Source: Chondrilla cf. caribensis (taxonomy: Eukaryota; Porifera; Demospongiae; Chondrillida; Chondrillidae). From it: DNA of 64,000 bases. The notes beneath the pieces are model-generated. The model worked only from the letters and a program-made list of their open reading frames with translations. It did not search any database and was not told the DNA's origin. Each line of letters begins with the position of its first letter. The stretch's first letter is position 1. The stretch is taken from positions 1,731,320 to 1,795,319 of the forward strand of contig OZ026568.1 in NCBI GenBank assembly GCA_964020155.1, read 5' to 3'. Of this stretch, positions 258 to 61,424 are shown one piece after another. The translations under genes and the position numbers were made by a program.

Positions 258-2838
258 ATGTCAGATACCAATGGTCCTAGTTCGAAAATTAAACTACCGA
301 AGAAGGAATTAGAATTGAACGACTATGACAGCCCGAAGGGTAACGCCAAAAGTGACGAGAAAACCAAAGAGGGAGGTCGAGTTGGTCAAAAGAACACCAG
401 TCAGGATCAGGAACCTGATCCTCATCCAACATCATGGCGTAGCTGGCGCTTCGCTCGAGTCTCTTATTCAATCATTGTAGTGAATTTACTCCTTATGAAC
501 CTTGGAATCTCACTCACTTACTCTTCCCCCTTAATGGACCAAATGATAAGAGAAGCTAATTTCACTCCTTGGGTAGATGGATTAAGCAATTGCGTCCACC
601 AAAGTTTAATCGGACCGTCTGTCTTGATAGGAAGCACCATAGGAGGACTCTTAAGCTCAATTTTGATCAATTTGTTAGGACTTGTGCTTTCCCTAATTCT
701 TTCGTCAGTTCTTTTCGTGGCAGGTTGGACTATGATCGGAGTTTCCTGGTTCGTCGGATATTCACCAACTTCATTTAGGACACTCATCCTCACTGGGAGA
801 TTTGTTACCGGACTGGCGTTTGGCTTGTTGTCCCCCTCCTGGGCTGTGAGTTATTCAAATATCACCCTAGCTGAACACTGATAGCTATAATGATATGTTG
901 TGGTGTTACAAAAATGAAATTAATTAGATTCATTCATTCATTCCTCTATTGCCTCCCTCCTGGGCTGTGAGTTATTCAAATATGACCCTAGCTGAACACT
1001 GTTGGCCATAACAACATTATGTTTTGTTGTTATGGAAATAAAATTCATTAGATTCATTCATTCATTCCTTTATTGACCCCCTCCTGGGATGTGAGTTATT
1101 CATGACCTTGAACACTGTTAGCTGTAATGATATTATGTTACTTGTTATGAAAAAATAGATACCCACCGAAAACTGATGTATCGAGATCGCCGACAGAGAT
1201 ATTTTTTGCCTTTGCCTTGCTAGGGATGGCTTAGATGACATTTTGTCTCTTGCTTTTAACCTTGTATCCAAGGATTTGGTTCAGTTTGTTTTTTACTACA
1301 GTGTTCTTCTTCAATTTGAATATTGATCTGTCTCCCCCATCCTAAATCACTATATAGTGTATCACGTTTTAAATTTACGCTATTTGAGAGATAATCATAA
1401 TTTCTTAGAAAGCTCAAGGCCACAAGTGATGATGTCTCAAAACTGATTTCAGGTCTAATAACCACATTTGAAAGCAACACAATATTTTAATTATTATGAA
1501 TCTGAAAGCGATTATTTTCCAATTCAAAAAAAAGCAGTAAGTGTGGCTATTGTATGTGGCTTGGTTGCAGAATCAATCTGCAGCTATAGCTAAACAAATT
1601 ACACTTACATTAACATCAATTACCTTTTTGGTTCAATCTTGAAGTCGATAGGTGTTGCTTATTTAATAATTATATCAAATAATCTCCAAGAATTGCATGG
1701 CTTGAGGACTGTAACAACTATATAACAATTTACTACTTTGTTTTTTGCTCATTCCCTGTAGGTTTATATTGGTGAACTCTCCTCAACAAAGTACCGTGCT
1801 ACTCTGATGGCAATAGGTTATGTTGCGTATGCCATTGGAGTGATCATGTCTTATCTTTTTGGTGCTTTCTTCCCATATTGGGTCTGTGCATTTATCTATG
1901 GCGGGATCACTGCAGCTCTTATCCCATTAGTAGTTGGTGTGACTGAACCTCGCAACCGTAATATTGTCAAGAATGCTAAAAAAATGCTGACAAACTTAAA
2001 AATTCAAAAAGATGTACTTGTTCGAGAATTTACGCTTGGTCCTTTTTTCAGAAGAATTCTTATGGTAGAAGCAGTCTTTTTCAGCCATTCCTTCATGGGT
2101 TATGTGGCTCTGATACAATATGTGGGACCCATTCTCAATGTAGCAGGTGCCAGGAATTGGCATATACCACATGGGGTTTTGGTGGCACTGGCTGTTGGTG
2201 GTGGAGACATTATGGGCTCACTGTTGTCAATTCTTGCTTCTCTAAGACTTAACCATGTATTTTCCGCTTTTATAGGAGCCATTGGCGTATGCATTGGACA
2301 CCTAGGTATTGCCACATACTTTGTTATTGTTGATGGTTTGGGTCCCCATGAAGTCTTTCACGGGCAAGGCTACCTCAATGAATCTATTTCAACCATCTGT
2401 TTCTTTGAACCGGCAATCAGAGCTGATATTGGACAAAAGTATAGTCCCCTAGCATTGATATGCATTGCCATTGTCATGGTAATGTACGGTGCATTTTGGA
2501 TGATGCAGCCCTATGTCATATCTGTTGAACTCTTCAACAATGAGACAAGAGAACTTGGAGTGGGCATTGCAATGGCATCAGAGAGTATATTCTACATAGT
2601 TTTGTCTTTTGTGTTTCCCTGGCTAGAGGCCACCATAGGAATAGCACTATTATTCTTCATACTTGCCTTAATTGCTGTATTGACGGTCATCATGATTCCC
2701 ACCCTGGTCCCTGAGACTAAGGGGAAGGTAATGGGTGAACGAGGTGACACGTTCACTCCCAAGCAAAATTGGATAGAACTATTCCAACCAATTAAGGAAA
2801 ATGGCAAACGTGCTATGAAGAAACTACTATCACATTGA
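258..2838 (+). CDS. MFS sugar-porter-type transporter, copy A (two coding exons)
   Basis: Exons 258..845 and 1762..2838 (donor GTGAGT, acceptor ccctgtag) give about 554 residues. The first ATG is at 258; an upstream in-frame GTG is not used. After a charged cytosolic N-terminus of about 70 residues there are about 12 hydrophobic segments, usual for the major facilitator superfamily. The splice joins GRFVTGLAFGLLSPSWA to VYIGELSSTKYRA, the TM4/loop signature of sugar porters (SLC2/Tret1-like). Near the C-terminus VPETKGK matches the family PETKG motif. The usual GRR-type signature of the TM2-TM3 loop is not evident, so the substrate cannot be read. It should act in a membrane as a facilitator or proton-coupled carrier. 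A near-identical tandem copy lies 2.6 kb downstream. Family call is firm; substrate unknown. Confidence 0.85.
831..1150 (+). repeat. Threefold tandem repeat that copies the exon 1 end and its splice donor
   Basis: The segment cctcctgggctgtgagttat at the exon 1/intron boundary recurs near 956 and, as ctcctgggatgtgagttatt, near 1081, spaced about 121 and 124 bases. Each unit carries TTCATTCATTC-type sequence and a GTGAGT donor. The second transporter gene has only two units (near 6031 and 6150). Confidence 0.8.
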
Positions 2839-2998
2839 TATCTTTTTCATTATCACCATTAATTACTGCGCTCACTGCATATGCAATAGATCACATCATT
2901 ATTCCAATGTATGATGTTCTTATTAGACTATAGGTGGTGGTTGAAAGTAGTTTTGATATTATTATAATAATGTATACTTCTTTATTGTGATTATTATA

Positions 2999-5450: not shown

Positions 5451-7913
5451 ATGTCAGATACCAATGGTCCTAATTCGAATATTATTTTACCGAAGAAGGA
5501 ATTAGAATTGAACGACTATGACAGCCCGAAGGGTAACGCCAAAAGTGACGAGAAAACCAAAGAGGGAGGTCGAGTTGGTCAAAAGAAGAACACCAGTCAT
5601 GATCAGGAACCTGATCCCCGTCCATCATGGCGTAGCTGGCGCTTCGCTCGAGTCTTTTATTCAATCATTGTAGTGAATTTACTCCTTATGAACCTTGGAA
5701 TCTCACTCACTTACTCTTCCCCCTTAATGGACCAAATGATAAGAGAAGCTAACTTCACTCCATGGGTAGATGGATTAGATAATTGTGTCCACCAAAGTTT
5801 AATCGGACCGTCTGTCTTGATAGGAGGCACAATAGGAGGACTCTCAGGCTCAATTTTGATCAATTTGTTAGGACTTGTCCTTTCCCTGGTTCTATCGTTA
5901 GTCCTTTTCGTGGCAGGTTGGACTATGATCGGAGTTTCCTGGTTCGTCGGATATTCACCAACTTCATTTAGGACACTCATCCTCACTGGGAGATTTGTTA
6001 CCGGACTGGCATTTGGCTTGTTGTCCCCCTCCTGGGCTGTGAGTTATTCAAATATCACCCTAGCTGAACACTGATAGCTATAATGATGTGTTGTGGTGTT
6101 ACAAAAATGAAATTAATTAGATTCATTCATTCATTCCTCTATTGCCTCCCTCCTGGGCTGTGAGTTATTCATGACCTTGAACACTGCTAGCTGTAATGAT
6201 ATGTTACTAGTTATGCAAAATAGACGTCCACCAAAACTGATGTATCAAGATCACCAATGGAGACATTTTTGGCTTTTGCCTTGCCAGGGACAGCTTAGAT
6301 GACATGTCGTCTTTTGCTTTTAACCTTGTGTCCGAGGTTTTGGTTCAGTATGTTTTATACTACATCGTTGTTCTTCGATTTGAATATTGATGTGTGTGAT
6401 CCCAAATCAGTATATAGTGTATCACATGTACTTTTAAATTACGCACTATTTGAGAGTTATCATAAATTTGAGAAAAGTCATGCTCAAGGCTACAAGTGAT
6501 GATTCCTCAAATCTCACTTCAGGTCTAATGACCAAGGTTAGAATGAAAGCAACACAATATTTTAATTATTTTAAATCTGAAAGTAATTATTTCCCAATGC
6601 AGAAAAAACAGTAAGTGTGGTACGTGGTTTGGTTGCAAAATCTATCGGCAGTTATAGCTGAGCAAATTACAGTTACATTAACATCAATTACCTCTTTGAT
6701 TCAATTTTTGAGTTGATAGATGTTGCTTATTTAATAAAATTTAATATATAATATAATCTCCAAGAATTGCATGGCTTAATGACCATAACAATTATTATAA
6801 CAATTTGCAACTTTGCTTTCTGCTCATTCCCTGTAGGTTTATGTTGGTGAACTGTCCTCAACAAAGTACCGTGTTACTCTATTGGCAATAGGTTATGTTG
6901 CGTATGCCATTGGAACGACCATGACATATCTTTTTGGTGCTTTCTTCCCATATTGGGTCTGTGCATTTATCTATGGTGGGATTACTGCAGCTCTTATCTC
7001 ATTAGTTATCTGTGTTACTGAACCTCGCAACCGTAATATTGTCAAGAATGCTAAAAAAATGCTGACAAACTTAAAAATTCAAAAAGATGTACTTGTTCGA
7101 GAATTTACGGTTGGTCCTTTTTTCAGAAGAATTCTTATGGTAGAAGCAGTCTTTTTCAGCCATTCCTTCATGGGTTACGTGGCTCTGCTACAATACGTGG
7201 GACCCATTCTCAATGTAGCAGGTGCCAGGAATTGGCATATACCACATGGGGTTTTAGTGGCACTGGCTGTTGGTGGTGGAGATATTATGGGCTCACTGTT
7301 GTCAATTCTTACTTCTCTAAGACTTAAACATGTATTTTCCGCTTTTATAGGAGCCATTGGCGTATGCATTGGACACCTAGGTATTGCTACATACTTTTTT
7401 ATTGTTGATGGTTTCGGTCCCCATGAAGTCTTTCACGAACAAGGCTACGTCAATGAATCCATTTCAAGCATCTGTTTCTTTGAACCGGCAATCAGAGCTG
7501 ATATTGGACTAAAGTATAGTCCCCTAGCATTGATATGCATTGCCATTGTCATAGTAATGTATGGTGCATTTTGGATGAATCAGCCCTACGTCATATCTGT
7601 TGAACTCTTCAACAATGAGACAAGAGAACTTGGAGTGGGCATTGCAATGGCATCAGAGAGTATATTCTACTTACTTTTGTCTTTTTTGTTTCCCTGGCTA
7701 GAGGCCACCATAGGAATAGCACTATTATTCTTTCTACTTGCCTTAATTGCTGCATTGACAGCCATCATGATTCCCACTCTGGTCCCCGAGACTAAGGGGA
7801 AGGTAATGGGTGAACGAGGTGACACGTTCACTCCAAAGCAAAATTGGATAGAATTATTCCAACCAATTAAGGAAATTGGCAAACGTGCTATGAAGAAACT
7901 ACTATCACAGTGA
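5451..7913 (+). CDS. MFS sugar-porter-type transporter, copy B (two coding exons)
   Basis: Exons 5451..6038 and 6837..7913 with the same donor (GTGAGT), acceptor (ccctgtag) and phase as copy A give about 554 residues. The same markers are present: TM4 region GRFVTGLAFGLLSPSWA, then VYVGELSSTKYR across the splice, and VPETKGK near the end. Differences from copy A are scattered substitutions, with one residue gained (an extra Lys) and one lost in the N-terminal tail, and no break; both copies look functional. The gene lies tail-to-tail with the amidinotransferase gene, whose stop codon is 683 bases away. Promoter similarity to copy A starts about 160 bases upstream of the ATG, so regulation was probably duplicated too. 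Substrate unknown. Confidence 0.85.
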
Positions 7914-8595: not shown

Positions 8596-11500
8596 CTATA
8601 GGCTAAGCTTTCCATCAAAATGTGCTTCAAGGCTCCCACGGCGACGAATGTCACATGTCATACAGTGAATTCCCCCACCCAGGTGGTTTACATGCCTGAT
8701 ATTGACTGGAATGGGGGTTATGCCAAGGTCCTCAAACATCTTGATGATAGAAGCCTGATCTGCTTGTACAAGAACACGTTTCTCATCCAACATCACCACA
8801 TTCATATTTAGCCAAATATCAGGCACAGGGGCAGGATCTGAAAGCAAGGTTCACAGAATCATTGTCAGAATACCAAATATATATCTAAGGTAATGACAAT
8901 TCTATTTACCTAAGGTAGAACTAGAATTTGTAAACTGACTAAATCACTAAGTGCAGAACAACACATAATTTTGTTATCATTACCTATAACAGGTGGAGCA
9001 AAGACAACTCTCCATCCTGCTTTTTTAATCTTCTCTATCTCATTGCAAGGTCTTGTTGGATTACTGATGACAAGTCCAGGTCCAATGATGTTGAATGTAG
9101 TATCGATATGCAAGGCGTTGTGGTCTTCGAAAGAGAGGGTATGAAGACGAATCCCCTTAGCTGCCAAGTGACGTTTCATCCACTCAATGCCCAAATAGTT
9201 AGTCACCTATAGGGTGGTATATTAATATGCGTGTGAGCAGTATAATATCATACTACAAATCCACATACATAAGTCATTAAAAAAACAATTCAGCATGTTC
9301 AGTTTAGCTCATTCATGACACATGACAGAAAAATTTTGTCATGTGTCACAACAAACTCACTGCAAGACCTGCGACAGTGACATTTGAACATGTGCTCAAT
9401 GAACACTATAATATAGGCAGAGGAATGGTGTGGCAAGTGGGGGGGGGGAGCTAAAGGCCTTGGTGCTGAACTCATGATTGATATTGCAATTGTGTCAATG
9501 CATGCAATACTCTACATAGACATTCTTAGCCCCACCTTTGTGATGAGTGGGGGGGGGGGCATGGGTCCCCTGCCCAGGTTCCGCTGCCTATACTATAATA
9601 TCACACTTGTCTATACACCATCTCCTTCATTAGCTGGTCTGGTGCATCTACTAAATATTTTGATTTGGGGTGGTCTTGCTATTGCCTTGCATGTGGAATA
9701 TATTCCTCACATTATGGACATGTGATATGTGCATGAAGCAAAGTATTCTTAGCCTGGGCCATCTTCTAAGGGTCTGTACTTACAGTCAACTAGTACGTAA
9801 GCAGGTACAGGTCATGCAGGAGACAAGGAAGTGGTTACTATGACATCTAAATAGTGGCAAAGGCACCAGACCATTGGGGCACCATGGGGTATGGAGACAA
9901 GACAAAGCGGATACTTGATCTGCCATTTTATTTTGTTATTTGATTGTGACAGAGCAATTTACATTAATTCAGGTTACCTCAATACCAATACCCTCATTCC
10001 AAAGCGCTCTCTGGAAAGATTGAATATAGGTACACATAATACTCATTCCAATACTCACTATAATGCTTGATAATGGCATGGGACAAGTGGTCATGTGTAA
10101 ACATTACGGAATGAACTATGAAAGGAAATGATTTTTCCATGATACTGCCAATGGGTTTGGGTAGAACATTTCTCACAACATGTCTGTATACTATAAGGCT
10201 GTAGTTATATTCCGGACACATAGGGTATTTAATATATTTCACTGTGGAATTTTATCTTTACACTCCAAATAAGAGGTTGTATTGTCTGTTGTTGAGGTTA
10301 ACACACTGCTATTGACTCTCAATGTCCCCTTGCTCTATCTACTTGATAGAGTATAGTGAAGTATTGGCTACGGCACACAATAGTAAAATATTTTAAAACC
10401 TGCAATGTACACTGAACATACAATCTTACGTACATGACTTCTCCGTACAAAGATATCTCTACCAGCCCGTATGAAGTCAGCAGCCTCAAAACAGATTTCT
10501 TTTTCTGTGGTAATGAACTTCCCTTGTCTTGCTAATTTCTTGCGTTCGTCAATATCATAAATCGGATAATCCTGTAATTATCATAAATAATAATATACGT
10601 ATATATCATAAGTAAAATATGCACAGCTAGTGGATGATTTATAAATGAAAGTGATACAACAATGTTAACACATTATAAACGTCAGGCATCACCTGCAATG
10701 TTTGAACATTGATTGATATTTTCTTACTAGGACACAATGATTATTATTAGTAAGAAAGAAAATAAACAAAATGAATGAATCAATGAATAGGTGTACTGTA
10801 GAGGTCCAAGCCTACATTCATTACCATCATTTTAGGATATAATAAGATTGTTACAGTACTAAGAAAATGGTGAAATACCACTGGACAGTTCTGTGTGAGT
10901 TTGATTTAGTAGCGAAAAATGTGCCAAATGGAGAAGCTCTCGAAGTAGTGTTATTTCTAAACAACTAATAATAAGTAATAAATAAGACATAAACCCTTTG
11001 ATCAGGTAATTTTTGAACAAAATAGCAAAAATTCCTTCAAATAATTTTGCTGCTCCATGGAATGCAACCTACGGTACTAATTACCAAGCGTTAACGAGGT
11101 AATTGTTTCCGTTCGTTAGGGGATTCCGATCGAGGTCACCCACGTTTTAATTGGTCGAAGGTGTCTCAATGAAATTTTTGTAATGAATTTACTCCAATAT
11201 GTCAAATTTGTGTCACGCGCAGCAAACGTCTGCGAGGTCAGAGAGGTGATTGGTGCCACACGTCAAATAGGGGCAACGGTGAGGCATCGGACTGAGGCTA
11301 TCATTCAAGTCTAGCCCACTTACTCGCTATGTCACGACGGCTGAAAGTTTTTCCTTCATCGAGTGCACCTGGATCCGGATTTTGCCTTGAGACAACATTC
11401 TTTGGCTTCGCATCACAAGAAAAATGTCTTTCAATTTTCCTGTGGAACAGATTTTCCGATTAATATTCTGTAAAGTCGGCGATTCGTAGTCTATGTTGGG

Positions 11501-14500
11501 GACATCGAAATGCACAGCCATTGTGTCATCCATGTTGGCAGACATTTAATGGCTATAATTAGTAAAGTGACATTACATTGACGATGTCGATGACATAATC
11601 AATATCCAAGCATTTGCGAGGTTCTGAACTTTGTTCACAACTCGTTATATAAAACTGAACGTTCTACGGGTACGGATCGGGCGTACCCATACCCGTTCTG
11701 TACCCGTACCCGTTCCATACCTGTACCTACTAAACGGGAACGGCCGTTTAGTAGGCAAGTCGCCGAACTTGACGATTGCAAAAAATGTACACCTACGTAG
11801 TGATACCTAGAGTGACACCTACGTATCTCCTTTTCATCATGTTATTAGCGAGTACACAATAACAGCAGCACCAAATAATAAATAAATGTAAATGTAATCG
11901 TACGTAAAAACAATAATGTATGCACAGTGAGACCATTTTTCGGAAAAAAATGTTACATTGTATGGTTGAGATGAGCTTGTGATCAGGGTGTTCTAAAAAA
12001 ATGGCGGAAATATCAATGATGATGTTGATGAAAAGGTGATTGCCACAATTTTCCTTGGTTTTTCACTGGAGCCAATTGCCCAAATCTTGGAGACATGCCT
12101 TCATGCTGTTGATGTAACAAAAATGGAAAATGCAAGAACTGCTCCTGTGCCAAAGCCAGTAGAAAATGTGACGGCTGCTTACCACTGTCTCTCAAAACGT
12201 GTCTAAACACGGAAGACATATCAGACTCACCAGTTTTACCAGTTTTACCAGATTCGCCTGGCCAACCAGTTTCACCTGATTTATCAGACTAACCAGTTTT
12301 ACCAATTACATTAGATTCATCAGATGAGATGCCTAACCAGACTCAAAAACACCAAAGTTTAGCCACAGTCCCTCCCAATACCGTTCTTCCTCCACTACCT
12401 CCGTTTCAATCATCTCATACTCCCAGATTTAGCTGGGGAGACTACTCGGAGGACATCCTATGCCAAGAAATCAACTGTTGTTATGTCTCGATGGTGCACT
12501 GGTCCAAACTCTTGTTTCCAATCCCTCAGGGATCGGAAGGAGCTAAGTTGGTGAAGGAGATGTCAAGGCTACTCCGGCTATATGCTGACAAGTCCTCTCT
12601 TGAGGCAAGTACCATGTGAAGGCTTTGATGATCTTCCCCTCCCTCATGCTAGTAAAGCCTAGTAAGAAGTCAAGGGCCAAAGAGGAGAGAACATATCTAA
12701 AGAGGAGGCTCCAAATGTGGGAGAAAGGAGAAATAAGACAGCTGAGAGAAGAAGCCGAGGCATTACAGCGAAGATTGGCTACCAGAAAGACTGATACTCC
12801 CTCCAACGACCAACCCATCACCAGGCGTTTCGGATACCTACTCAGAAAAGGGAAGGTGAAAGATGCCATGAGATTTCTAAAGAAGGCACTCAGAGGCCTT
12901 TCAGAAGTACAGACTTGCTGGACGGTAAACCAGTCATAGAGATCCTTCAAGAAAACACCCTAATGGAAAAGACTACAACCTAGCGCACTCTCTGAGACCA
13001 CCCGGAGGATGGTGAATTTCATACCATCGTGATTGAAGGAATCAACGCCAGCCTAATTTGTGCCTCTGCATTGAAAGCCAATGGTTCATCGGGACCCTCA
13101 GGACTTGATGCCCGTGAATGGAAACGTCTCTGCACATCTTGCAACCTGCACTCTGATAAACTTTGTGATGCCATAGCAGCTGCTACTAGGCATCCATGTA
13201 CTGAGTATGTGGACCCGGTTTCAGTGGAAAGTTTAATGGCATGCCGACTCATCACACTAAACAAGAATTCTGGGGTACGCCCAATCGGAGTTGCCGTAAC
13301 CCTAAGACGCATCATGGGGAAAGCAATCCTGTCAATCATTGCTGAGGACATCCAGAGAGCAGCCGGATCTGTACAGCTATGCGCTGGCCAAATTGCTGGC
13401 ATAGAAGCAGTTATCCACACCATGTAAACGGTCTTTGAAAACACGGAGACTGAAGCTGCCTTGTGGATGTGGACAGAGTTTCTCTGTAGAGCATGCCCTC
13501 AGCTGCAATCTAGGTGGATTCCCGATATTGCACCACGAGTTGCGAGACCTAACCACAGACCTTCTATCCCAAGTATGTCATAATGTCTCCCACTGAGCCT
13601 CATTTACAACCATTGAGCGGAGAAACACTGCAACACAACACCGCAATTAGAGAAGACAGCGCTGGATTAGACATAAAAGCCAATGGCCTATGGGGAAATA
13701 GATTCCACACCACTTTTCTTGATATCCGGGTCTTCAATTCACATGCACCCAGATACAGATCAACGACACCTTCAAGCCTGTACCAGAGACATGAGCGAGA
13801 GAAGAGGAGAGCATATAGCCACAGAATCTCGGAAATTGAGCATGCCTCCTTCTCCCCCATTGTCTTCTCAGCCACAGGAGGAATGGGCTGTTGTACCAAA
13901 GACTAGCAGCCATGATTGCCGAGAAGAGGAAGCAAGAATACAACCATACTCTGATGTGGATTCGATCCAGATTAAGCTTTGCCCTCCTTAGAGCAGCCAT
14001 CATGTGCTTGAGGGAATCTCGACCTAAGCGACTCTACCAACAAGATTCTCATGATCATGTCGAAGCTATCTTCGCAGAATGCCGAATGGGCAGGGCCACG
14101 GCCAGGCAAGGCCAGGTTTCATCGTGTTATAGTTTGTTAGAAGATGGTTTATTTGAGTTACGTGAAGCAGCGAATTCTCTTTTGTCGACGTTCGGCGACG
14201 AAGGCGATGAAACGACCGCGGTCGAACTCCAACTACTACAGTAACTTAAGAGCGAATTGTGTGACGCATCACTATCCACAATACTCCGAGGAACACTCAT
14301 CACAGGAGAAGAACGTACACGTACATATGTAGAGAGATCGTTTCAAAATAGCACTTTATTATAAAAATTAACGCGTACGTAAGAATATCTATGATAACAC
14401 GAAGTGTTGATTACGGTATAGTGTAAACAAAAGAACAGATACGGGTACTCCTGTACCTGTACCTGTTTCATGAGCGTTATCACACAACGGGTACGCTCGT

Positions 14501-17319
14501 AGAATGTTCAGTTTTATATGATTAGTACCGTAGCTGGATAAAAATTACTTTATTTCAAGCTGCTTATAGCAGGTCCTTATCCCATTTATCTTTAACCTGA
14601 GTGTGAAATGTGGTTTCTTTGATGACTCAGCTATCTCTCAACTTGACTAACACCTGAAACTTCCATCACAGCTTGCATGGCCACAAGGTGTCAAGAATAC
14701 TTTAAGTTGTAAAGCGCCAAGTGCAGAGAAATCTAGTGACAATTTCACTATACTTGACAAGTTTTGAAGTAAATTACTATTATAATCTTGTTACATTCAT
14801 ACCAGTAAAAGTGACTAATTTCTGTGTTGAATTCCTTTAGTGATCAATTTGTAAGGTCTTTATGGTAGAGCATAAATCTCCTGTTATCACCCTGCCTTTC
14901 ATACACAACCTCTACATTAAAGCCATAGTTGTAAACCACACTACCTCCATTGTTGAAATGACTGACAATGTAATGTACAATGAGTAAAACCCTACCATTG
15001 GTTAAAACTAAGCACTTGTTACACCATGATAGGCCAGTGGTAAGTACAGAATGGTTCAATCAACAACAATCAGTAGCCAGCGTGAAACCAATGCAGGCAA
15101 TAAACATACACTTATTGATCATGACTGGAGGTGACAGGGTTCAGATTACCCTCAATCCTGTGGTGACTCAGTAGTTGGACTCATCAGAGGAATTTTGCTC
15201 TGATGACAAGTAGATTGTACATTGATTAAGGTAGGCAATCTATGTACCTCAGACTATGAATACATTGATTTCATTTCAAATCCTATTCATAATTGTGAAG
15301 GGGCCATACCCAAGTTGACCACTTTCTTGTTAAAACTTATCACTATTACATGTAAATGGTTCATTTTTTTAAGATCATGACTAAAATAACTTCATTAACT
15401 AAAATTTAAACCAATTCCAATACTATACTAAGTGTTCATCCAAGCTATCAAAATCAGCATTAGGTCTTACCTGGTCATACAGTTCATCCCCCATAATTGG
15501 TTTAGGTGCTGTTGTGACAATGGCTCCTTTTTTGAAGTATTCTGTCATCAACTTCCTGTATGCTTGATATTCAAAGAACCGTGTTCGCCATCCCATTGGT
15601 GCTTCAATGATTTCATTGCCAATCACTGTCCAAATATCCCTTGGATAGCATGCATACAAACCTAAATAGGAAAAATCTCAGATTATTACATGTGTCCTAC
15701 ATATGTCATATACTTATAATACTACTAATAATAATACATGGTACAAATGGTATAGCGGGAAACTTTGGCGAGGTTTTTAATTTGGTGAATTGGCGATTTT
15801 ACGGAAAATCGCCAAATTTCAAATCCGCCATATTTTATTCTGACGTAATCTGACGATTCTGGAATTTGCCATGCCGCCAAATTTAAAACTTGCCAATTCG
15901 TTCCGGGGACCGATTCGCCAAATTTAATGCTCGCCAAAGTTTCCCGCTATACGGTAATAAATATATTATGTATATATAATATACTTATGTATACACACAT
16001 AAAATGTATGTACCAACACACACATGTACCAAATGCACACACGCATGCACAGACACACATGTACACATATTCCAACATGCAAGGACGCACACATGAACAC
16101 ACACACATGTACACACATTTACTAACATCATTTTCACTAAATGGCTGAAAAATACTTCCAGACTGAGTTACCCCTACATGTACACTATAATCACACTCAA
16201 TGATACACCATCTTATATGACTGTATTGCTCAGTTTCACATAATCCTCGTAATGCATTGTTAGCAGAGGTGAAGTGTGAAATATTTTCATAACAGGCTCA
16301 TACACGGGTAACATTTAGAAAGGTGGGTTCAACAATTTGGGAAGTAAGCAATTCTAGTTTTGGAGCTTCAACACTCCAATGGTATATGGAGGGATGAAGC
16401 TCCAAAACCCTGCAGCTGTACCCAATAATAGGAAAATATTCCAAACTGGAACATTTTAGGACCTGAGAATCTCTATGGGGGCACGTGCAATTTAACATCC
16501 TCTCCCTACCCGTTAGTATGCATTAGCCAAATTCAAGTTATAATTAGCACAATAAATTCAAGTGAAATTACTGCTGTATATACACACATGCACGACACTA
16601 ATTATCTGTACAACTAACCATTTGATCTGAAACTAGGAGTGACAAATTCAATGCTGAAATCTACAGGTTCCGGGCGACGTACAGTTATCCCTTCCTGTTC
16701 CAATATGCGACACACTTCATCCATCTCTTGTCTTGCTTTCATTACAATTTCCTCCGAAAATGATTTCCCTGCATTATACTTGATAACTTCCCCATGTTTG
16801 GAACCATGTACCCAAGCCTGTTGAAAGAGGACAACGAATAACATATAAGAAGCACTATGGTGTGATGATCCCAGCAAATACAGGATTTCAAACTCCAAAG
16901 ACCACCTTTATTAAAAAAATATTGAATATATACAGTAAGTATAATGATAATGTATATGCGTATCATATTCAGAGCAGTATACGTACATATATTTAAAAAG
17001 CACACCTCAACGTCTTTGGTTAGATATTTGGGTATGGTAGCCCCATCTGGTACTCCAACAATTATCTCCTCTAGAGGATCCCACTCATTCCATGAATTCA
17101 CAGGACAGTTGGATGCATTCATACTTTCGGTAAATTTAGGTGCAGTCGTTGAAAGAAAGTTTAATCTGTATGATAATTATTAATTAATTTGAAAATAAGT
17201 AAAAATTATGAGACAAGTAATCTGCATACAGCTGCAACATACTTGGTAGAAGAAGTTCTCCTTAAGGCATTGATCCTAGAGGTACACCTTAATAGACATC
17301 GTATTCCCCAGAAAGACAT
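8596..17319 (-). CDS. GATM: Glycine amidinotransferase, mitochondrial (AGAT), seven exons
   Basis: Minus-strand exons 17243..17319, 17006..17165, 16619..16817, 15471..15661, 10434..10571, 8984..9206 and 8596..8837 all have GT-AG boundaries in consistent phase and total 1230 nt, 409 residues (vertebrate enzyme about 423). The enzyme transfers the amidino group of arginine to glycine, giving guanidinoacetate and ornithine. The N-terminus ([12 protein letters not shown], then Arg/Ser/Thr-rich) looks like a mitochondrial presequence. Markers: [42 protein letters not shown]-free HID motif in [13 protein letters not shown] (His288, Asp290) and [15 protein letters not shown], with catalytic Cys388 in IHC. 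The residue usually Asp (human Asp254) reads Glu238. The 4.9-kb intron 10572-15470 holds mobile elements. Exon 1 is short and was found by eye, so it is the least certain part. Confidence 0.92.
9238..10060. repeat. AGAT intron segment duplicated at 3180-3790
   Basis: This intron is the longer partner of the relic near 3.2-3.8 kb. It carries an additional stretch at about 9415-9595 with two G-runs (gggggggggag and gggggggggg) that the relic lacks, probably a later insertion. Confidence 0.7.
11082..11215. repeat. Dispersed repeat, copy 1 (second copy 33630-33765)
   Basis: The string beginning accaagcgttaacgaggtaa and continuing through gattccgatcgaggtcaccc to gtcaaatttgtgtca is matched with scattered changes near 33630-33765. 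Its first bases also appear inverted at about 43531-43555. Unclassified. Confidence 0.65.
11647..14519 (+). mobile_element. Degenerate reverse-transcriptase element bounded by terminal inverted repeats
   Basis: Left end atataaaactgaacgttct and right end agaatgttcagttttatat are inverted repeats, each with TACCCG/GGGTAC-rich subterminal sequence. Between them, + strand, lie pieces of one protein: a Cys-rich domain, a helical region, part of a reverse transcriptase and a C-terminal nuclease-like domain. It sits in the 4.9-kb AGAT intron, parallel to the + strand and opposite to AGAT. No clear target duplication was found. Confidence 0.7.
12107..14245 (+). pseudogene. Broken polyprotein: CXC-like domain, RT, PD-(D/E)XK-like nuclease
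   Basis: Pieces in several frames give the order: a Cys-rich block at 12107-12217 ([19 protein letters not shown], tesmin/CXC-like); a helical region at about 12430-12940 (VVxHW-like, then [19 protein letters not shown]); RT finger/palm sequence at 13029-13427 ([33 protein letters not shown]); and a C-terminal block at about 13583-14010 with LDI...FLDIRVFN...[13 protein letters not shown]...ATGGM, the D-(x)VRVFN...E-x-K pattern of a PD-(D/E)XK nuclease. Palm motifs B and C are missing: sequence jumps from a degraded motif A (near 13440) to the C-terminal block. Stops and frameshifts occur throughout, including a TGA in the Cys block, so it is dead. The protein family is one I recognise as widespread in invertebrates, but I cannot name its clade. 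Confidence 0.65.
15753..15949. mobile_element. TA-flanked MITE with TAGCGGGAAACTTTGGCGAG ends
   Basis: Left end tagcgggaaactttggcgag and its exact inverted copy ctcgccaaagtttcccgcta bound 197 bp flanked by TA. Inside are further inverted patches (ttggcgatttt / aaaatcgccaa). Non-coding; in the large AGAT intron. Confidence 0.85.
15985..16115. repeat. Degenerate CA/ACATGTAC microsatellite
   Basis: Irregular CACACATGTAC units in the AGAT intron; no coding meaning. Confidence 0.7.
16357..16408. repeat. Short perfect hairpin
   Basis: gttttggagcttca (16357-16370) is the exact complement of tgaagctccaaaac (16395-16408), with a 24-base loop, inside an AGAT intron. Confidence 0.7.
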
Positions 17320-34733: not shown

Positions 34734-34737
34734 CCAG

Positions 34738-39087: not shown

Positions 39088-39126
39088 CTCCTTAAATTTC
39101 AACCAAAACGAAGTAACGAACAAATA

Positions 39127-39144: not shown

Positions 39145-39146
39145 AA

Positions 39147-40365: not shown

Positions 40366-40787
40366 TCACAAACATAACATCTTCTTAATGAGTTTTGTCT
40401 GCTGCTTGTTACAATACGCGGGTCTCTTTATCGCCCTCCTTGCTCGTTTGTTCTTGCGCTTTTGGCGTCGATTCCGACCTGCCTTCCAGTATTTTACTTT
40501 ACCTGAACCTGTGATCTTGAAACGCTTCAATACTGCTTTCACTGACTTCTTTTTACCTTTTCTTCGGCTGCAGACTACCAAAGTTCGTTTTAGGACCTGT
40601 GTTGGAAATAATCGGTAGTCGTCCATAAACAAGTTTTCGGTGTCCCCTTCGCATAAGAAGTCAAACTCCTCCACGACCTTAAAGTTATATGTTTCCGAGT
40701 ACGTATAGATTGTAAACAGCGAGGCTGAAGTAATGAGTTTTTAAAACCAAATCTTGAACTCGCGTTTTGAAGCAACCTGAACGCCAT
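40366..40787 (-). pseudogene. Mitochondrial ribosomal protein bL35m, frameshifted copy
   Basis: It corresponds to the intact gene at 61837-62259 but is 422 bases long instead of 423. One base is missing near 40605-40615 (ggaaataatcgg against ggacaagactcgg), so the N-terminal half (MAFRLLQNASSRFGFKN) and the conserved half (KKKSVKAVLKRFKITGSGKV) are in different frames. Outside the indel the copies are nearly identical, so the break is young. It lies after broken ODC copy 2 and head-to-head with a CHMP7 stub. Confidence 0.8.
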
Positions 40788-40806
40788 TTTGCCAACATAA
40801 ATTAAA

Positions 40807-40905
40807 ATGGCTGCTCCTACAGACTCCCTACGGACATGTACAGATTGGTCCAAACCGACGGAATGGTCAGATACAGAAAGAATGCATTTTCTCATGGGCC
40901 CTGAC
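40807..40905 (+). pseudogene. CHMP7 5'-end stub
   Basis: About 33 codons starting MAAPTDSLRTCTDWSKPTEW, nearly identical to the start of the gene at 62279, until homology ends near 40900. This is the edge of the duplicated block. Confidence 0.8.
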
Positions 40906-41459
40906 CTCTTTTCATATGAGAACCAGTCGTCTCTATAACGAGGAAAAAGTCCCATAAGTGAGCAATTGAAACCCGTAGATTTGCCATCTTTTCGATTACG
41001 TAGACTGCACGTCATGTACAAATGTCTGCCGAGATGGACGTCACCATGGCTGACCAATTCGAGCTCCCTAACGACGAATTGACGTACCCCCTTTCGGCGC
41101 GATGAGGAATCGAAATTCAGTACGTAAAAACTTTGACAGCCTTCCCGTTGATCGTTTTAAGCTTACCGACGGCGCCCGACCCGGAACACCCAGGCCCTCA
41201 GGCAAAGAAAAGTGAGTGTCATTATTGTCCGTCTCTCGGCAACTGCTGCTGATCTTGACGAAAGTCTTCCACCTCCGTGTGTGACGCGTCCGTGCCCCCT
41301 TCCGACGGGAGGTACGGATCGAGACCAGCCGGTTGTAAACTCGTGGAATTTGCGCACAAAGAATTTAAAGTGCAAATGGGCCATAATTCTGCGAGTGTCA
41401 CGACGAAAAGCAATTAGATGCGTGGGCGACCAACTTTCGACTCGCTATGGACCGGAAAC
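40906..41459. other. Unassigned region between CHMP7 stub and repeat copy 2
   Basis: Several short frames on both strands, none with a recognisable domain. A 27-codon frame near 41020 (MSAEMDVTMADQFELP) resembles the start of a frame at 11545 on the minus strand ([16 protein letters not shown]); meaning unknown. Confidence 0.4.
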
Positions 41460-50001: not shown

Positions 50002-53000
50002 ATGCAAATCAGGTATTGGGACAACAGTACCGGACACGATCAAGAGCTACTATCTGATCCCAAACTGCTCTCGCTGTCTCAGCGACAAATCGACTGCATT
50101 GTAACACCCAATGGTACGACAATATCTGAGTTTCTAAGGACAATGGTCAAAGGACGGGAAGACTCTTTCTTTGCTGTGGATCTTGGTCGCGTTCTTCGTC
50201 TTCACAAGCAATGGAAAAGGTTACTACCACGAGTCGACGTTTTTTACGGTGAGGCCCAGAATATTGCTAACCTTGCTAACCATGGGGTTTAGAGAGATAC
50301 CTCTGAGTGTTCACGTCACACACTCCCTTCACTTGCTTCTTGCGTACAGACACAACCGCACTTTCTCTCCACTTAGTAGGTACCCGCTCACGATCCCAAC
50401 AGACCGTAAACAATGATACCCACGCCTCAAGTTAGTAGAGTAAAGAATCAATGATCGAACGCCACCTATATTCGGACATATAAAATTGGCTATTTCTCGA
50501 AAACTATAGAATCTACTGACTCCCAATAAACTTTGTTTTATAGGCCATTACATGTAGTCGCTCTCTACTCAGTGTGATCCTCGTAGCTTATCGCATGGCT
50601 CTGCTAGAATCGATCGAAAAAATCGATATTCGGACAAAGGAACGAGCTTTCGGACGGACCTCACTACAGAGTGGAGAAACGACGAAGAACCCAGAAAACA
50701 TCAGAAATTATAGCTCTACATGTCTACTTTGAAATATGAAAGTTAGAGGTGGATATGTATCACTTTGAGGAAATCCGAACAAGTTATCTAACCTTCTGTG
50801 AAAGACCAAATTTCGGACGAATTTATACTATTTTGGGAATTTATATAGGCTGAATGGCGTTATTCGTCAATATAAATTCCTCTCTGCAATATAAATTTGT
50901 TCGAAATTTGGTCTTTCACAGGGGGTTAGATATCTTGTTCGGATTCCCTATAAAACAAAGTCTATTGGGAGTCGGTAGGTTTCATAGTTTTCGAGAAATA
51001 GCCAATTTTAGGTGTCCGAAAATGGGTGGCGTCCGATCGTTGATTATTTACTCTAGTCACTTTTTTCTGATTTATCAAGCAGCCTTTCTGTCAACCTCAT
51101 TTCCATCACTACCCCATCGAGCCCGGGTATATTGGTGTAGATGCAAAATTGCCCTACCTAATGGCTAGCCATATTATATCTGCCCCAGTACTGCCAGTAG
51201 CCAATTCTACTATATGTTTGCCAAGTCGACTCTAATTAAAAACATCGAAATGCACAAACCATTCAGAGATGAGCAACCAAATTCATAACCTAGACTATAT
51301 GATAGACTAGTATATAACATTGGGTGCATGATGCAACAGTGTCAAGAGCTAGTGGGAGAGGTTGATAGCAATCTTTTGTATGATTGATGCACTGGTGGAG
51401 TCTGTGTCATATAATAGCTGATTCTTATAACATGTTATTTTATATACCTTCCAATTATTATTTAACAGTACTGGATTTTGTGTGATTTGTTATGCATCTC
51501 TATCAGCTGCTTCATTAATTTACAGTAAACACGCACAACTCCAGGTAGGGTCACCAAATTAATGGACCCTACCCAGGTAGAGTCAACTATTTAGTGACCC
51601 TTACATGCCCACTTAACAAACAATTGAGCATAATTTGTAACATTTCAGGACATTGTGCAGACATATATGCATGAGTCTGTGTTGACTGTAAAGTGGTCAA
51701 TTGTTGATATGTCCATAATAAGATATCTGCTGGAATTCAGACAAATTATGTGTCAACATGTTATTGGATTCCTCATTTTGAGCCAGTTTAGGCCAATAAC
51801 TAGATTCATCACTTGAGAATTGACAAAAACAAGCAATGTTTACTGTTTCCATCTGATAATGTCATAACACAGCTGCAAATCTGTATAACAGTTAAATAAT
51901 TATTGGACAGCATATAAAATAACCTGTTTTATACAATATCATCTAGTATAATATTATGTTTCTTTTTCGATACTGTTGTTTTGTGCCTCATAAGACAGTT
52001 TGGCAGGCAAACAATAACTGAACTGAATTGAATTTAATTGAATTGAACTTTTGTACCAGGCAGGCTGTACACCTTATAAGTGATGACAGTCCTTCAACAT
52101 ACACAAAATTAACTTTTTTTACCACCAATCACACATAACTCAACTTACAGTGAGCAGTAGTCTACAGCTGATTGTCTGGGCCCTGTAAATTCTCATTCAC
52201 ATTCGACTCAGTCATCTACACATTATTCACTATTGACATGCATATACTCTTCCTAATGAGCAGTTGTAGTGAAATTACATTGGCAACCTTCTATATTGCA
52301 ATGAAGTATTATATATAGTAGAATATTCTTTGATAATGCATGGCATTTCCAACAACAGTTTCGGAAATTTGTGAAATTATAACTTATATAGATGCAGTTT
52401 GAGAATTCAGCTTGACACTGTCTGTTATGGATTTGTATATATGGTTTTAGCCAGGTGTATAATTAGGTGCAGTTATATCCTTCTGATTTTGTGCTTTAAC
52501 TATGCATAATATTATGCAATATTATTATATTCACAGCTATGAAGTGTGCTAACGACCCAGTTTTGCTCTTCCTGCTTTCCCAACTCGGAGCTGGTTTTGA
52601 TTGTGCCAGTAAAGAAGAAATAAGAACAATTCTTGACCTTGGGGTCTCCCCAGAAAAGATTATTTATGCTAATCCAGTTAAGCAGATCTCCCATCTCAAG
52701 TAAGACTGTAATGTATCCTACTCATGTTTTGAATATATATATATAATGATATGCATACATGGTGTTCCATGCAAAGTACTATAATTAGTAGATTCAATTA
52801 ATTATTACACTACGAGTGATTTAGATAATGTGCTATTATTCTTGAATCATAATGAATATAATATCTGCAATAACTTTTATCTAATTTAATAAATCTATTT
52901 AATGCTAATATATAATTTTCCTGTCTTCCTACTTCTTTTAGGTACGCTAAAAATAATTGTGTGCATAGGTCAACATTCGATAGCAAAGAAGAACTGAAAA

Positions 53001-55763
53001 AGACAGTTGAGATTGATCCCAAAGCAGAACTTGTGCTTCGGATTAAAGCAGATGATGAAGATGCACTTCTTGTCCTTGGGACCAAGTTTGGGGCTACCCT
53101 ACCTGAAGCCTACCATCTCTTGGATGTAGCAAGTGACATGAATGCTAAAGTGATAGGAGTGAGGTCAGTTGTTGTATCTACATGCAATGTTCAAAAATTG
53201 ATGTTTCAGCTACTATAATGTAACCTTCATCAGAACATGCAAACAAACACAGAAAGAGTTACTTAAATAGAAATTGTAGTTTGGAGCTTGCAGGTCATGA
53301 TGGATGTTGCTTTAATAGTGGTTTCCAGCAATCCGCAATGGCTGTCCCCCTAATCTCTGTTAAAAAGTTTGTTAGCTTCTGCAAGTGAAATGTGCATGGT
53401 TTCTCTAACAAACAAGGTGAAATTGTCGCCTGGTTCACGATGGATGCATGTGTTGTCCCATTCCAGACATGTTCTGCTATGGCAGATCGACTTTTCGGTT
53501 TCCCCTCGTTTTCTTGCTGCATGCTTGGTGTTCTTTAAGGCGAGTCTCTAGGCTTCTCTTTGTCTCTCCAATGTATGTGAGATCACAGTTTCTGTTTCTG
53601 TGCTTGTTTGCATGTTCTGATGAAGGTTACAGTATATAGCCAAAACATCAACTTTCATTCAATTGGTTTTTAGTTGGAATTATGGATACTGGTTTACAGC
53701 CCCTATATTGTTTTCATTTTGACCAGTATGTTACGCTCGATTTATGTAGTAATTATTATGAATAAAAAAAATTTATAATAAATGCATATATATATATATA
53801 TATATTAGCATTATAGCATGACAAAACAGCCTCGGCATTAAATCTTTGGATGATGACACTGATTCTTTGGCATGAAATAAAACTGAAAAGATTGGCAGTC
53901 TGCAGACCTAGATGTAATAAGATGGCCTAGCTCCTTCAAAAATGACATGGCCTCATCTCCAAAAACTCCAAGTGTTTCCACATCAATAGGAACGAAATGG
54001 TGGGTGTGGGTCAGTTCAAGGTAAAGATGTTTCTTGTGATATTCCGCTCAATTGGCAATTGAGCCAGCATCTGAGGCTGCTAGAGATACATATGATGGCG
54101 TAAACGAATCCCAGACTGTTACATCCCATGTCAGAGCTTGACCTCTTTTCCAAGGCACTATTGTAACGCCTTCGGCTCGTTTGCCATCAGTACAACAAAG
54201 GCCGACAGGCTCTAGGATGGAAGGCAAGTCGGCTGCAGCCATACGTCACTTGATGACATCATTTGAGGCTGCATGACAGGAATGAACTCGTGGCTTTTTG
54301 CGGCAGTGAAGACTGTGGGTCCCATGTATGTCACCTTGGTTGCCGCAAAGAGTGCATTTGTGTACAGAGCACAATGGCAGATCCAATTGCAATCCAACTC
54401 CAATCCTCACAGCTTCGTCTTCTAAACGGAGACCCAGTGATGATACTGGTGGTGCTGTCAGCCAAGCACCCATTTCCTTTCTCTGCACTGCCAGCAAGCG
54501 GCCTCTGACCTGAGGAGTAGCACCCTCAAAAAGCCTTGTGAAGGCAGCATTCACATGTCCAATACCCCAGGCCTTTTGTTTGGATGAGTCTGACTCTGAG
54601 GGGGGTCACTGGTCAGACTGCAGGACCAAATGGCACGAGCATCAGCCTTGAAGGTGTTGGGAGCACTGGACATGGTACCGGCTAGGATAGGCACCCAAGT
54701 AATTCAAGTGCGGGGGGCAGCAGCCCCACGAGTTTTTGAACTGGAATTACTTGTTGCTATATAATGTTTAGATTTTTTATGTGCAATGCATTATTTTGTC
54801 AGCAGGCTTGCTAATACCATATAGCTGACTGTTGCTTTGATAATATTAGATTGTTCACTATAATTGTTTCCATTTCTACCATAGCTTCCATGTTGGCAGT
54901 GCATGTCTCAATCCATCTGCCTACAGCAGAGCCATTGAGATGTCACACTGTGTGTTTGAGTATGGGAAGACTGTTGGATATAATTTCGAGCTCCTGGACA
55001 TTGGAGGCGGATTCCCTGGACATCGAGGGGGTGACAAACTCTTTGAAGATATGTCATGTGCTATCAATAGCTCATTGCAGAAATACTTCAATGATGACAG
55101 GATCACAGTGATTGCTGAACCAGGGACATACATTGCTAGGTCTCTTTCAACATTAGCTGTTCATGTTATAGGCAAACGACTAGTTAAACAGGAAGATTGC
55201 TCTGAAGTAAGATTTGCACTCTTTTTGTCTTTATCGTCATATCAGATTCAGTCAGTATATGCCTAATGTTTCAGTACATGTTCATTATTGCAATGCACTG
55301 TACTTTTGCCATAGACTTGGATGTACTACATTAATGACGGTGTATATGGATCGTTTGTTCTCTACAAGGGATTATACGACTCCACCAGTCCTCCCAAGTT
55401 GGTCTTCCCTTCACAAAATGACCATAATTTCAGAAAATCAACAAAGGCAATTATATGGGGTCAAACTTGTGATAGTACCGATGAAGTCATTAGTGACATT
55501 TCTCTTCCCGAACTGAATATCGGTGACTGGCTGTACTTTGAGAACATGGGTGCTTACACTGGTACAACACATTCTCACTTTAATGGATTCCCCAAGCCAC
55601 AGTCACTGTACTACATCTCACAGGGTGATGCAGCTGAAATGGTATGCAATTTGCAGCTTATAATACGTGTTAGTTCTTTATTAATATAGTCTGGCTGACG
55701 TTAATGTTCTATTTTGTCCTTCAGTTCAAAGTCCTCAAGTCAGGAATGTTCATGACAGTTTAA
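50002..55763 (+). CDS. ODC1: Ornithine decarboxylase, copy 3 (six coding exons)
   Basis: Exons 50002..50248, 52537..52699, 52942..53163, 54885..55206, 55315..55641 and 55725..55763 join in phase to 439 residues, one more than copy 1 because of an in-frame codon in exon 5 (QNDHNFRKST). Same marker set: [58 protein letters not shown], ending MTV. No lesion seen. It belongs with copy 1: [12 protein letters not shown] and [10 protein letters not shown], the same RT fragment in intron 3 and the same MITE end downstream. The open frame continues upstream of the chosen ATG to another ATG at 49864, so a longer N-terminus is possible. Its upstream edge abuts the 3' end of repeat copy 3, so its promoter setting differs from copy 1 beyond about 140 bases. 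Confidence 0.9.
50438..51053. mobile_element. TA-flanked foldback element in ODC copy 3 intron 1
   Basis: Arms of about 100 bases (gagtaaagaatcaatgatcg... at the left, ...cgatcgttgattatttactc at the right) are inverted and flanked by TA; copies 1 and 2 show the empty site (gttagtactc). Inside, a second inverted pair (ccgaacaagttatctaac / gttagatatcttgttcgg) adds a nested palindrome. Related to the sequence at 19260-20075. Confidence 0.8.
51430..51928. mobile_element. TIR insertion with TTATA duplication in ODC copy 3 intron 1
   Basis: Left acatgttattttatatacc and right gcatataaaataacctgtt are inverted; TTATA precedes (51425-51429) and follows (51929-51933). ODC copy 2 shows the unoccupied sequence (gattcttataccatatcatc). 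No coding frame. 499 bp. Confidence 0.75.
53195..53730 (-). mobile_element. Penelope-like element fragment (ODC copy 3)
   Basis: Same element as in copies 1, 2 and 4; minus strand carries LVRETMHI- and W-K-P-like remains. The flank between exon 3 and the element is shorter than in copies 1 and 2, so it is a deletion derivative. The 53205-53235 arm (minus) keeps CTGATGA...GAAAC. Confidence 0.65.
53815..54690 (-). pseudogene. RT element C-terminal fragment (ODC copy 3)
   Basis: Minus strand: [39 protein letters not shown], a CTLCGNQGDIHGTHSLHC zinc-like motif, then [21 protein letters not shown] (nuclease-like D...W-D pattern) and a [19 protein letters not shown] tail. Homologous to 25540-26400 in copy 1; the RT palm is missing here after a deletion at 54690. 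Confidence 0.7.
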
Positions 55764-56016
55764 ACTGATGAAATCATTAGGATTCAATTGGTTGCTGTAG
55801 CTTGACTGAATTTAATACAACCTAACTGAAAGTCTGGATCTAGAATTAAAACTAATATTATTGCAGCTATCTTTATTATTATATATAATAATATTAATAA
55901 GTTGGGGAAGACTATGCAATATCATATATGGTACAAGTATGCAATACATTGAAAATTAAATCAACCATACATGCATATTTAATATCAATAAATACAGTGA
56001 AACCTCTCTAATCCAA
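55764..56016. other. ODC copy 3 3' flank ending in a MITE stub
   Basis: Same 3' sequence as copy 1 up to the first 22 bases of the MITE (cagtgaaacctctctaatcc), where the sequence switches to methyltransferase-like DNA. This is a rearrangement junction. Confidence 0.7.
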
Positions 56017-56410
56017 GTAAAGACAATTTTGGACACAAAGGGACAGGCAGAGAAGAGGGGAGAGATTGATGGTCTTCCTTCAAACTCCAGGAGAGTAGCT
56101 GGATGTGGGTCCCAGAACTCGTTGTTATTCTTATAGAAGTGGTGAAAAAAGGTAGCCGCTTTCCCAGGAAATTCTCTCCCTATAGCTATTTCCTCGGTTG
56201 TGCCTGAAATGCGGACCATCCACGCGGACTGCAAACCTGTACTTTAGTATGGCGACACCAATTAGCGCCCATAAGTTTTCAGGAAATTCTGTTCCGATTT
56301 TCTCCTGTGGGAGATGCCAGTAGTAAAAATTAAGCCAAGACTTGGCTTCGGCATCATTATGTCCTTGGTCCAACGTTTCAAATACTTTCTTACTGAAACA
56401 CTTGACAGGA
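56017..56410 (-). pseudogene. Broken fragment of the NNMT-like methyltransferase
   Basis: It matches residues around FPVKCFSKKVFETLDQ through GREFPGKAATFFHHFYK and LLEF-G-PSISPLFSACPF of the gene at 21317, then stops. About 100 bases (near 56182-56280) are inserted between two copies of aggaaattct. The SAM motif reads LLEFEGRPSI, and the C-terminal half is absent. Minus strand, between ODC copies 3 and 4. So the methyltransferase was part of the duplicated block. Confidence 0.8.
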
Positions 56411-56761
56411 TGATTTTGTGTAATATCCAAGTATACGATATAAGCTATTTGTAACTTTGAGTAATCATTTTTTATACTTCTTTAATATAATTATGTCAGA
56501 CTCACATATTCAGTTTAATTTGTAACTAGAACTAAAATACATGCTATTACTCCAAGATGAAATCATTATGACTACTCCATTCATTATATGCATGTGAATC
56601 ACAAATTTTCCTGCCTGCTTTCTTCCTCGTCTTTATAGTCTCGTTAGACTAAATGTTTCTATGTACTATAGGATGGATATTTCAGGAAAACATTATAATT
56701 AATTTTAACATTTGGACCATTTATAAGTTACACCTGATCTTCAAAATACTATATTTAACTA
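56411..56761. other. Unassigned AT-rich spacer
   Basis: No gene or repeat recognised between the methyltransferase fragment and the TIR element. Confidence 0.5.
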
Positions 56762-60900: not shown

Positions 60901-61424
60901 CATATCAGATTCAGTCACTATATGCCTAATGTTTCAGTATATGTTCATTATTGCAATGCACTGTACTTTTGCCATAGACTTGGATGTATTACATTAATGA
61001 CAGTGTATATGGATCGTTTGTTCACTACAAGGGATTTAACGACTCCACAAGTCGTCCCAGTTTACTCTTCTCTTCACAAAATGACCATTTCAGAAAATCA
61101 ACAAAGGCAATTATATGGGGTCAAACTTGTGATAGTGCCGATGAAGTCATTAGTGACATTTCTCTTCCCGAACTGAATATCGGTGACTGGCTGTACTTTG
61201 AGAACATGGGTGCTTACACTGGAGTAGCACATTCCCCCTTCAACGGATTCCCCAAGCCACAGTCACTCTACTACATCTCAGAGAGTGATGCAGCTGGAAT
61301 GGTATGCAATTTGCGGGTTATAATGTGTTAGTTCTTTATTAATGATATAGTCTGGCTGACGTTAATGTTCTATTTTGTCCTTCAGTTCAAAGTCCTCAAG
61401 TCAGGAATGTTCATAACAGTTTAA
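57957..61424 (+). CDS. ODC1: Ornithine decarboxylase, copy 4 (six coding exons)
   Basis: Exons 57957..58203, 59476..59638, 59721..59942, 60548..60869, 60978..61301 and 61386..61424 give 438 residues with all GT-AG junctions kept. Markers as in copy 1: [57 protein letters not shown], end ITV. It reads GFNDSTSRPSL where copies 1 and 3 read [11 protein letters not shown], so the residue before the substrate-binding Asp (human Tyr331/Asp332 region) is Asn; the exon 5 end reads DAAGM. It is the most compact copy (3.5 kb), lacking the RT fragment. The open frame extends upstream to an ATG at 57840. It is followed by MRPL35 and CHMP7, as in the block after copy 2. Confidence 0.9.
60075..60412 (-). 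mobile_element. Penelope-like element fragment, truncated (ODC copy 4)
   Basis: Keeps one inverted arm (60130-60180) and the last part of the nuclease region (minus strand: [20 protein letters not shown]), then ends at a deletion near 60412. The arm's GAAAC has become AAAAC. Confidence 0.65.

Follow-up and report, generated by a model that had tools for sequence, protein, structure and literature searches.

Genes of alkaloid pathways were essentially unknown in animals before the description of oro, a gene bundle of oroidin-producing sponges for pyrrole-imidazole alkaloids (PMC12833800). In oro, OroA is an amidinotransferase of the AGAT type (L-arginine:glycine amidinotransferase) that converts lysine and not glycine, and OroE is a member of the ornithine decarboxylase (ODC) family that decarboxylates homoarginine and neither ornithine nor arginine. 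The other oro genes described encode a CoA ligase, an acyltransferase, two cytochromes P450 (P450s) and a brominase of the ERFAD-type flavin-dependent monooxygenases (FMO), and the bundle spans a large region with unrelated genes interspersed (PMC12833800). A literature search in one library returned this paper as the only one on the subject. Here we describe a stretch of 64,000 nucleotides from the sponge Chondrilla cf. caribensis, hereafter the window (positions 1731320-1795319 of contig OZ026568.1, or C23, in a genome assembly of 137 Mb and 37 contigs). Like oro, it combines an AGAT-type amidinotransferase and a pyridoxal 5′-phosphate (PLP)-dependent decarboxylase of the ODC family in one region, with genes of animal type and other genes between them. 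Unlike oro, it adds an N-methyltransferase of the NNMT family, MFS transporters and an expanded ODC array. Our leading reading, held tentatively, is that the window is an oro-like bundle, in which duplicated genes of primary metabolism took on a new role in making a small guanidine or polyamine.

The genes concerned, and the gene remains among them, are as follows (window coordinates).

258..2838, plus strand: MFS/SLC2-type transporter 1, coding stretches 258-878 and 1762-2838, PF00083 in both, splice sites provisional
5451..7913, plus strand: MFS/SLC2-type transporter 2, tandem duplicate of the first, coding stretches 5451-6074 and 6837-7913, splice sites provisional
8596..17165, minus strand: AGAT-family amidinotransferase, exons 17006-17165, 16619-16817, 15471-15661, 10434-10571, 8984-9206 and 8596-8837
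21317..22228, minus strand: N-methyltransferase of the NNMT/PNMT/TEMT family, a single exon with a basic N-terminus, PF01234
22602..29696, plus strand: ODC copy A, open frame, exons 22602-22848, 24043-24205, 24444-24665, 28820-29141, 29251-29574 and 29658-29696
30909..39967 (approximate), plus strand: ODC copy B, broken by a frame break in exon 1 and a long-terminal-repeat (LTR) element in exon 4
50002..55763, plus strand: ODC copy C, open frame, exons 50002-50248, 52537-52699, 52942-53163, 54885-55206, 55315-55641 and 55725-55763
55992..56427, minus strand: methyltransferase relic, lying head to head with ODC-D on its upstream side, two tblastn pieces of 71-81% identity
57957..61424, plus strand: ODC copy D, open frame, exons 57957-58203, 59476-59638, 59721-59942, 60548-60869, 60978-61301 and 61386-61424

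From left to right, the two transporter genes are followed by the AGAT-family gene, the methyltransferase, ODC-A and the broken ODC-B, after which come a copy of MRPL35, transposon-like frames, ODC-C, ODC-D and a second MRPL35. Between the first transporter and ODC-B we saw mobile elements and otherwise no unrelated gene (frames of at least 80 aa, judged by eye; shorter exons could escape). Many introns, together with a tyrosine kinase and a fragment of a secretin-type G-protein-coupled receptor in the upstream flank, give the genes an animal look, and UNC-93-like frames lie in the downstream flank. No Rfam family reached its gathering score in the window, and a silicatein-like pattern produced no match. 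The original prediction, made from the letters of this stretch alone, had named two MFS transporters, AGAT, an NNMT/PNMT-type methyltransferase and three open ODC copies. All of these are present, with a fourth, broken ODC copy in addition, and the end it had set at 61424 is the stop codon of our ODC-D model. It had also placed MRPL35 and CHMP7 only at the far edge; MRPL35 however has two copies, one of them inside the ODC array, and CHMP7 was not recovered, the stretch at 62243-62749 giving no Pfam or NCBIfam match at an E-value of 0.001. As an observation, the prediction is partly confirmed.

The AGAT-family gene has six exons, beyond which a further 5′ exon was not found. Its product scored 485 bits to L-arginine:glycine amidinotransferase 1jdx (query residues 10-378, 369 aligned residues), which places it in the same family as vertebrate AGAT (GATM) of the creatine pathway. 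In the 1jdx alignment it retains Cys407, His303, Asp254 and Asp170, which we take to be the catalytic residues of an AGAT-type amidinotransferase. In contrast to the vertebrate enzyme, the acceptor loop reads NALHID instead of the canonical NPMHID, and the region of the catalytic Cys reads HCMTC instead of HCWTC. The pair of motifs belonging to a glycine-specific AGAT (NPMHID loop and HCWTC) is thus absent. Compared with 1jdx/1jdw and with the paralog on contig C9, the changes are P301A, M302L, S359N, F405I and W408M (numbering counted from the alignment).

AGAT exons gave 34 matches in the genome, which make up six genes at about five places. We compared the window copy with four of the five others, that is, all except one further gene on contig C1. 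The 300-loop was NPMHID in 1jdx and in the copies on C9, on C20 and at 1710k of C23, SAMHID in the copy at 1262k of C1, and NALHID in the window. The catalytic-Cys stretch was HCWTC in the C9, C1 and C23:1710k copies, HCYTC in the C20 copy and HCMTC in the window. By these motifs, the window AGAT is the most altered among the copies compared, yet not the sole altered copy. Among the 120 of 228 database matches listed, six AGAT exons contained the loop, five with NPMHID and one, from a close relative, with NALHID; a seventh protein matching the loop pattern (P0059) was dropped because it is not AGAT. Used as an AGAT probe, the ADI family (PF02274) gave a single weak match, on C18, and a search for GAMT found no match in the genome, although this was a weak test with no positive control. 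An intron of the window AGAT (12000-14250) contains non-LTR-like frames, one of which was scored, with no Pfam match. Some 20-30 kb upstream of the window (C23:1701836-1711170; L030, L031), an MFS fragment (1702k) lies beside a second AGAT (1707-1711k), the C23:1710k copy, which has LDGG where the other AGAT copies have LGGG.

ODC copies A, C and D splice into complete open frames of 438-439 aa. ODC-A scored 375 bits against ornithine decarboxylase 2oo0 and 374 bits against human ODC 1d7k. The catalytic residues Lys69 (AMKC), Cys360 and Asp361 are retained in the window copies, as is Tyr389 (ODC numbering). The window copies differ from eukaryotic ornithine decarboxylase, with which they share the family as well as Lys69 and Cys360, by the substitution R277T (EPGTY) and by an insertion of two residues before the specificity helix (the LYD332 stretch, from the alignment). 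Both changes occur in all six ODC copies of C23, namely A-D and the copies at 1418k and 1424k, so that the combination of Arg277 with a canonical specificity helix containing Asp332 is missing from this set. Copies B and D have, in addition, FND in place of LYD. The ODC gene on contig C14 is canonical (EPGRF, VYDHA), with neither R277T nor the insertion; the residue comparison covered the family except for two members on C21. Among database proteins, an uninterrupted EPGTY was found in seven (P0022-P0025, P0027, P0031, P0035), two of them from this same genome, while 59 have Arg; the remaining non-Arg readings at position 277 mostly seem, judged by eye, to be frames that run past an exon end.

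Across this decarboxylase family, the 3-10 specificity helix and the Cys loop are described as varying with the substrate (PMC7857480). In human ODC, R277 forms an ion pair with D332 and matters for PLP binding, and the mutant R277S is described as having limited activity (PMC4139326). The active-site changes in the window AGAT and ODC copies would fit altered substrates. Pairwise dN/dS was 0.21 for A-C and 0.33 for both A-D and C-D, at a dS of 0.09-0.12 (binomial p of about 1e-4 or less against neutrality). Hence, the open ODC copies A, C and D are under purifying selection.

Two further ODC-family genes, on opposite strands at C23:1417600-1426600 (L038, L039), differ more strongly. The 1418k copy reads YYA and has D361C, the 1424k copy reads FYP, and both also lack a residue at or just after D332; D332 is lost in the pair. 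They are possibly pseudo-enzymes or enzymes of a third specificity. In the window, an LTR retroelement lies in exon 4 of ODC-B (34551-39316), with two identical end repeats of 163 bp, CACGG on both sides and one open frame of 1466 aa, in which the integrase is upstream of the reverse transcriptase, an order that we take to be that of Gmr1-type elements. It looks like a recent insertion. The non-LTR-like frames in an intron of ODC-A (26237-27700) gave a match to PF00078.

The methyltransferase matched PF01234 (NNMT_PNMT_TEMT) with 95.3 bits, against a curated cut-off of 25, and belongs to that family. Its best PDB match was indolethylamine N-methyltransferase 2a14 (80 bits). While it has PF01234 in common with the NNMT/PNMT/INMT family, it carries an extra basic N-terminus and an acceptor segment unlike that of NNMT. 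The start codons of the methyltransferase and ODC-A are head to head, 373 bp apart. The relic near ODC-D, whose DNA is 94.6% identical over 167 bp, stands in the same head-to-head arrangement, and for this reason the unit of methyltransferase and ODC looks older than the ODC array. We also considered the match to GntF_guanitoxin (44.5-44.7 bits, cut-off 60) as a pointer to guanidine methylation, and rejected it, as four of the six tested paralogs score higher. None of the 48 pattern matches on GTDB contigs encodes a relative of the methyltransferase.

The transporters form a tandem pair (99-2992 and 5292-8076) with 89-95% identical DNA. Copy 1 matched Pfam Sugar_tr (PF00083), and copy 2 gave weak PDB matches to GLUT7, GlcP and GLUT5 (26-33 bits). 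Between the copies, dN/dS was 0.32 and 0.40 for the two coding stretches (binomial p < 0.01 against neutrality), and the pair is under purifying selection.

Synteny in related genomes had been proposed as a check of the original prediction. The protein database gives the size of the longest contig for each protein cluster, and we inferred a shared contig from equal size. Proteins of this same genome bear the approach out: MFS2, the C23:1424k ODC and the C23:1418k ODC (each 100% identical) all carry 1,723,288. A contig of 637,579 bp carries an MFS (92-93% identity), an AGAT exon (97.5%, with NALHID) and an ODC exon (92-95%). Another contig, of 1,347,422 bp, carries a methyltransferase (93%), an ODC exon of the window type (86-91%) and two more ODC exons whose closest counterpart is the C23:1424k type (79-81%). 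Because the latter are only 79-81% identical, a different species is likelier than the other haplotype, and the relative's protein divergence is about 3-20%, depending on the locus. These matches indicate, as far as contig sizes can be trusted, that MFS, AGAT and ODC on the one hand and NNMT and ODC on the other are linked in a close relative too. Given how close the relative is, this linkage supports functional clustering only weakly.

The main alternative, which we hold to be only slightly less likely than the leading reading, is a chance neighbourhood, in which families that often duplicate have come to lie side by side while each serves its own pathway. Close-relative synteny is expected without selection, and unrelated kinds of genes flank the window (tyrosine kinase, secretin-type receptor fragment, UNC-93-like). 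NNMT, MFS and AGAT are multi-copy families with arrays elsewhere (seven NNMT genes on C6; six MFS genes on C16 and two on C15), which implies that local duplication is common in this genome. Nor are altered AGAT and ODC copies restricted to the window. In contrast, the window AGAT and all window ODC copies are of the altered kind. Moreover, when clusters were placed at random in 137 Mb, AGAT and ODC fell within 10 kb of each other in only 0.2% of trials, AGAT and MFS in 0.5%, and NNMT and ODC in 0.5% (4 AGAT, 4 ODC-family, 8 NNMT and 9 MFS clusters, our own counts and partly lower bounds). These percentages overstate the surprise, as the families were chosen after being seen; the AGAT-ODC pairing, however, is also present in the published oro bundle.

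Several other observations weigh against the bundle. Linkage was seen solely in a close relative, and for an 89% MFS relative on a contig of 2,157,995 bp, the 120 matches listed out of 228 included neither an ODC nor an AGAT partner. None of the other families turned up around the nearest NNMT paralog (77%, C23:796k; stretch C23:780-810k), around the ODC pair at C23:1418k (stretch C23:1400-1440k) or around the C14 ODC (stretch 95-115k), each stretch being 20-40 kb long. R277T and further changes are also present 300 kb away, in the C23:1418-1426k pair of ODC genes, just as AGAT copies outside the window are altered (SAMHID at C1:1262k, HCYTC on C20). R277T itself could mean reduced catalysis as well as altered specificity, and the GntF_guanitoxin match of the methyltransferase gives no pointer to a guanidine substrate. 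Another bundle possibly exists elsewhere in the genome, at C1:745k-1262k, where an NNMT-family gene shares one stretch with numerous P450 exons (850-1157k), with a distant MFS gene (1188k) and with a pair of AGAT genes (1238-1262k).

The C23 ODC copies might instead be regulators of polyamines akin to antizyme inhibitor, and not decarboxylases, in which case the array would be a regulatory expansion. Antizyme inhibitor presumably lacks Arg277, and D332 is lost in the 1418k and 1424k copies, the former also having D361C. Arg277 and Asp332 are among the dimer-interface residues that have been compared between ODC and the inhibitor (PMC4139326), and they are altered in some copies. We nevertheless consider this explanation improbable, because the window copies keep the Lys, Cys-Asp and Tyr residues listed above, and because antizyme inhibitor 1 scored 280 bits compared with 375 bits for ODC.

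The least credible explanation, and a very improbable one, equates the window with the oro locus or a direct ortholog of it, serving pyrrole-imidazole alkaloids. In its favour, the two share the AGAT-type and ODC-family pair, P450 exons lie at C23:1932-1947k, about 140 kb downstream of the window (92 of 165 candidates scored), and oro is said to extend over a large region with unrelated genes interspersed (PMC12833800). Against it, the text consulted lists neither NNMT nor MFS genes for oro, and partial searches gave no AMP-binding match, as expected of a CoA ligase, on C23 1.4-2.0 Mb (14 of 48 candidates scored, exon by exon) and no Pyr_redox_3 match, as expected of an FMO, on C23 (15 of 30 candidates scored, exon by exon). 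As far as these partial searches reach (they did not include the acyltransferase), the window differs from oro in that neither a CoA ligase nor an FMO candidate turned up near it, and it differs in the distance to its P450s. A further difference is that OroA and OroE are described as assayed, whereas the activities of the window enzymes are predicted ones.

The remaining features of the window are the two MRPL35 copies and a stretch of transposon-like frames.

40366..41156, minus strand: MRPL35 copy within the array, PF01632 in 40366-40740, supported by self-alignment
61837..62358, minus strand: MRPL35 edge copy, PF01632

The inner copy appears split across two frames. In the self-alignment, 39309-40901 is 94% identical to 60767-62373; MRPL35 thus lies inside the array because it was copied along with an ODC 3′ end. 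The minus-strand open frames at 45500-48500 look, by eye, like those of a transposase-like protein and of a Ulp1-type protease that has a PHD finger; a single one of them was scored, with no Pfam match. Downstream of the window, C23:1803625-1813038 (L033, L034) holds, by eye, two tandem UNC-93-like transporter genes. One of their three scored frames matched UNC-93, below the cut-off.

Under the leading reading, that of an oro-like bundle of repurposed genes, we infer the substrates, the order of steps, the methylation target, the transport and the joint product as follows. The transporters would move the substrate or the product. The altered AGAT may use arginine as its amidino donor and, as acceptor, an amine that is not glycine, most likely lysine or a diamine as in OroA; the result would be, for example, homoarginine, with release of ornithine. 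The altered ODC copies would then decarboxylate the amidinated amino acid, as OroE does to yield homoagmatine, or another large basic amino acid, and the NNMT-family enzyme may N-methylate an amine of the product. The original prediction had proposed a simpler chain, in which AGAT makes ornithine and guanidinoacetate and ODC uses the ornithine. The active-site changes in AGAT and ODC speak against this chain and in favour of a specialised, oro-style pathway, so that the proposal as a whole is partly supported.

It is more doubtful whether the window represents a second animal bundle for guanidine or polyamine alkaloids, separate from oro, in which a re-targeted AGAT and a re-targeted ODC array act one after the other, together with an N-methyltransferase transcribed divergently from the first ODC copy and dedicated transporters. 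If it did, this would suggest that amidino transfer followed by decarboxylation recurs in the guanidine chemistry of animals and can be searched for as a signature, and the window would supply candidates for enzymes that make products like homoarginine or homoagmatine.

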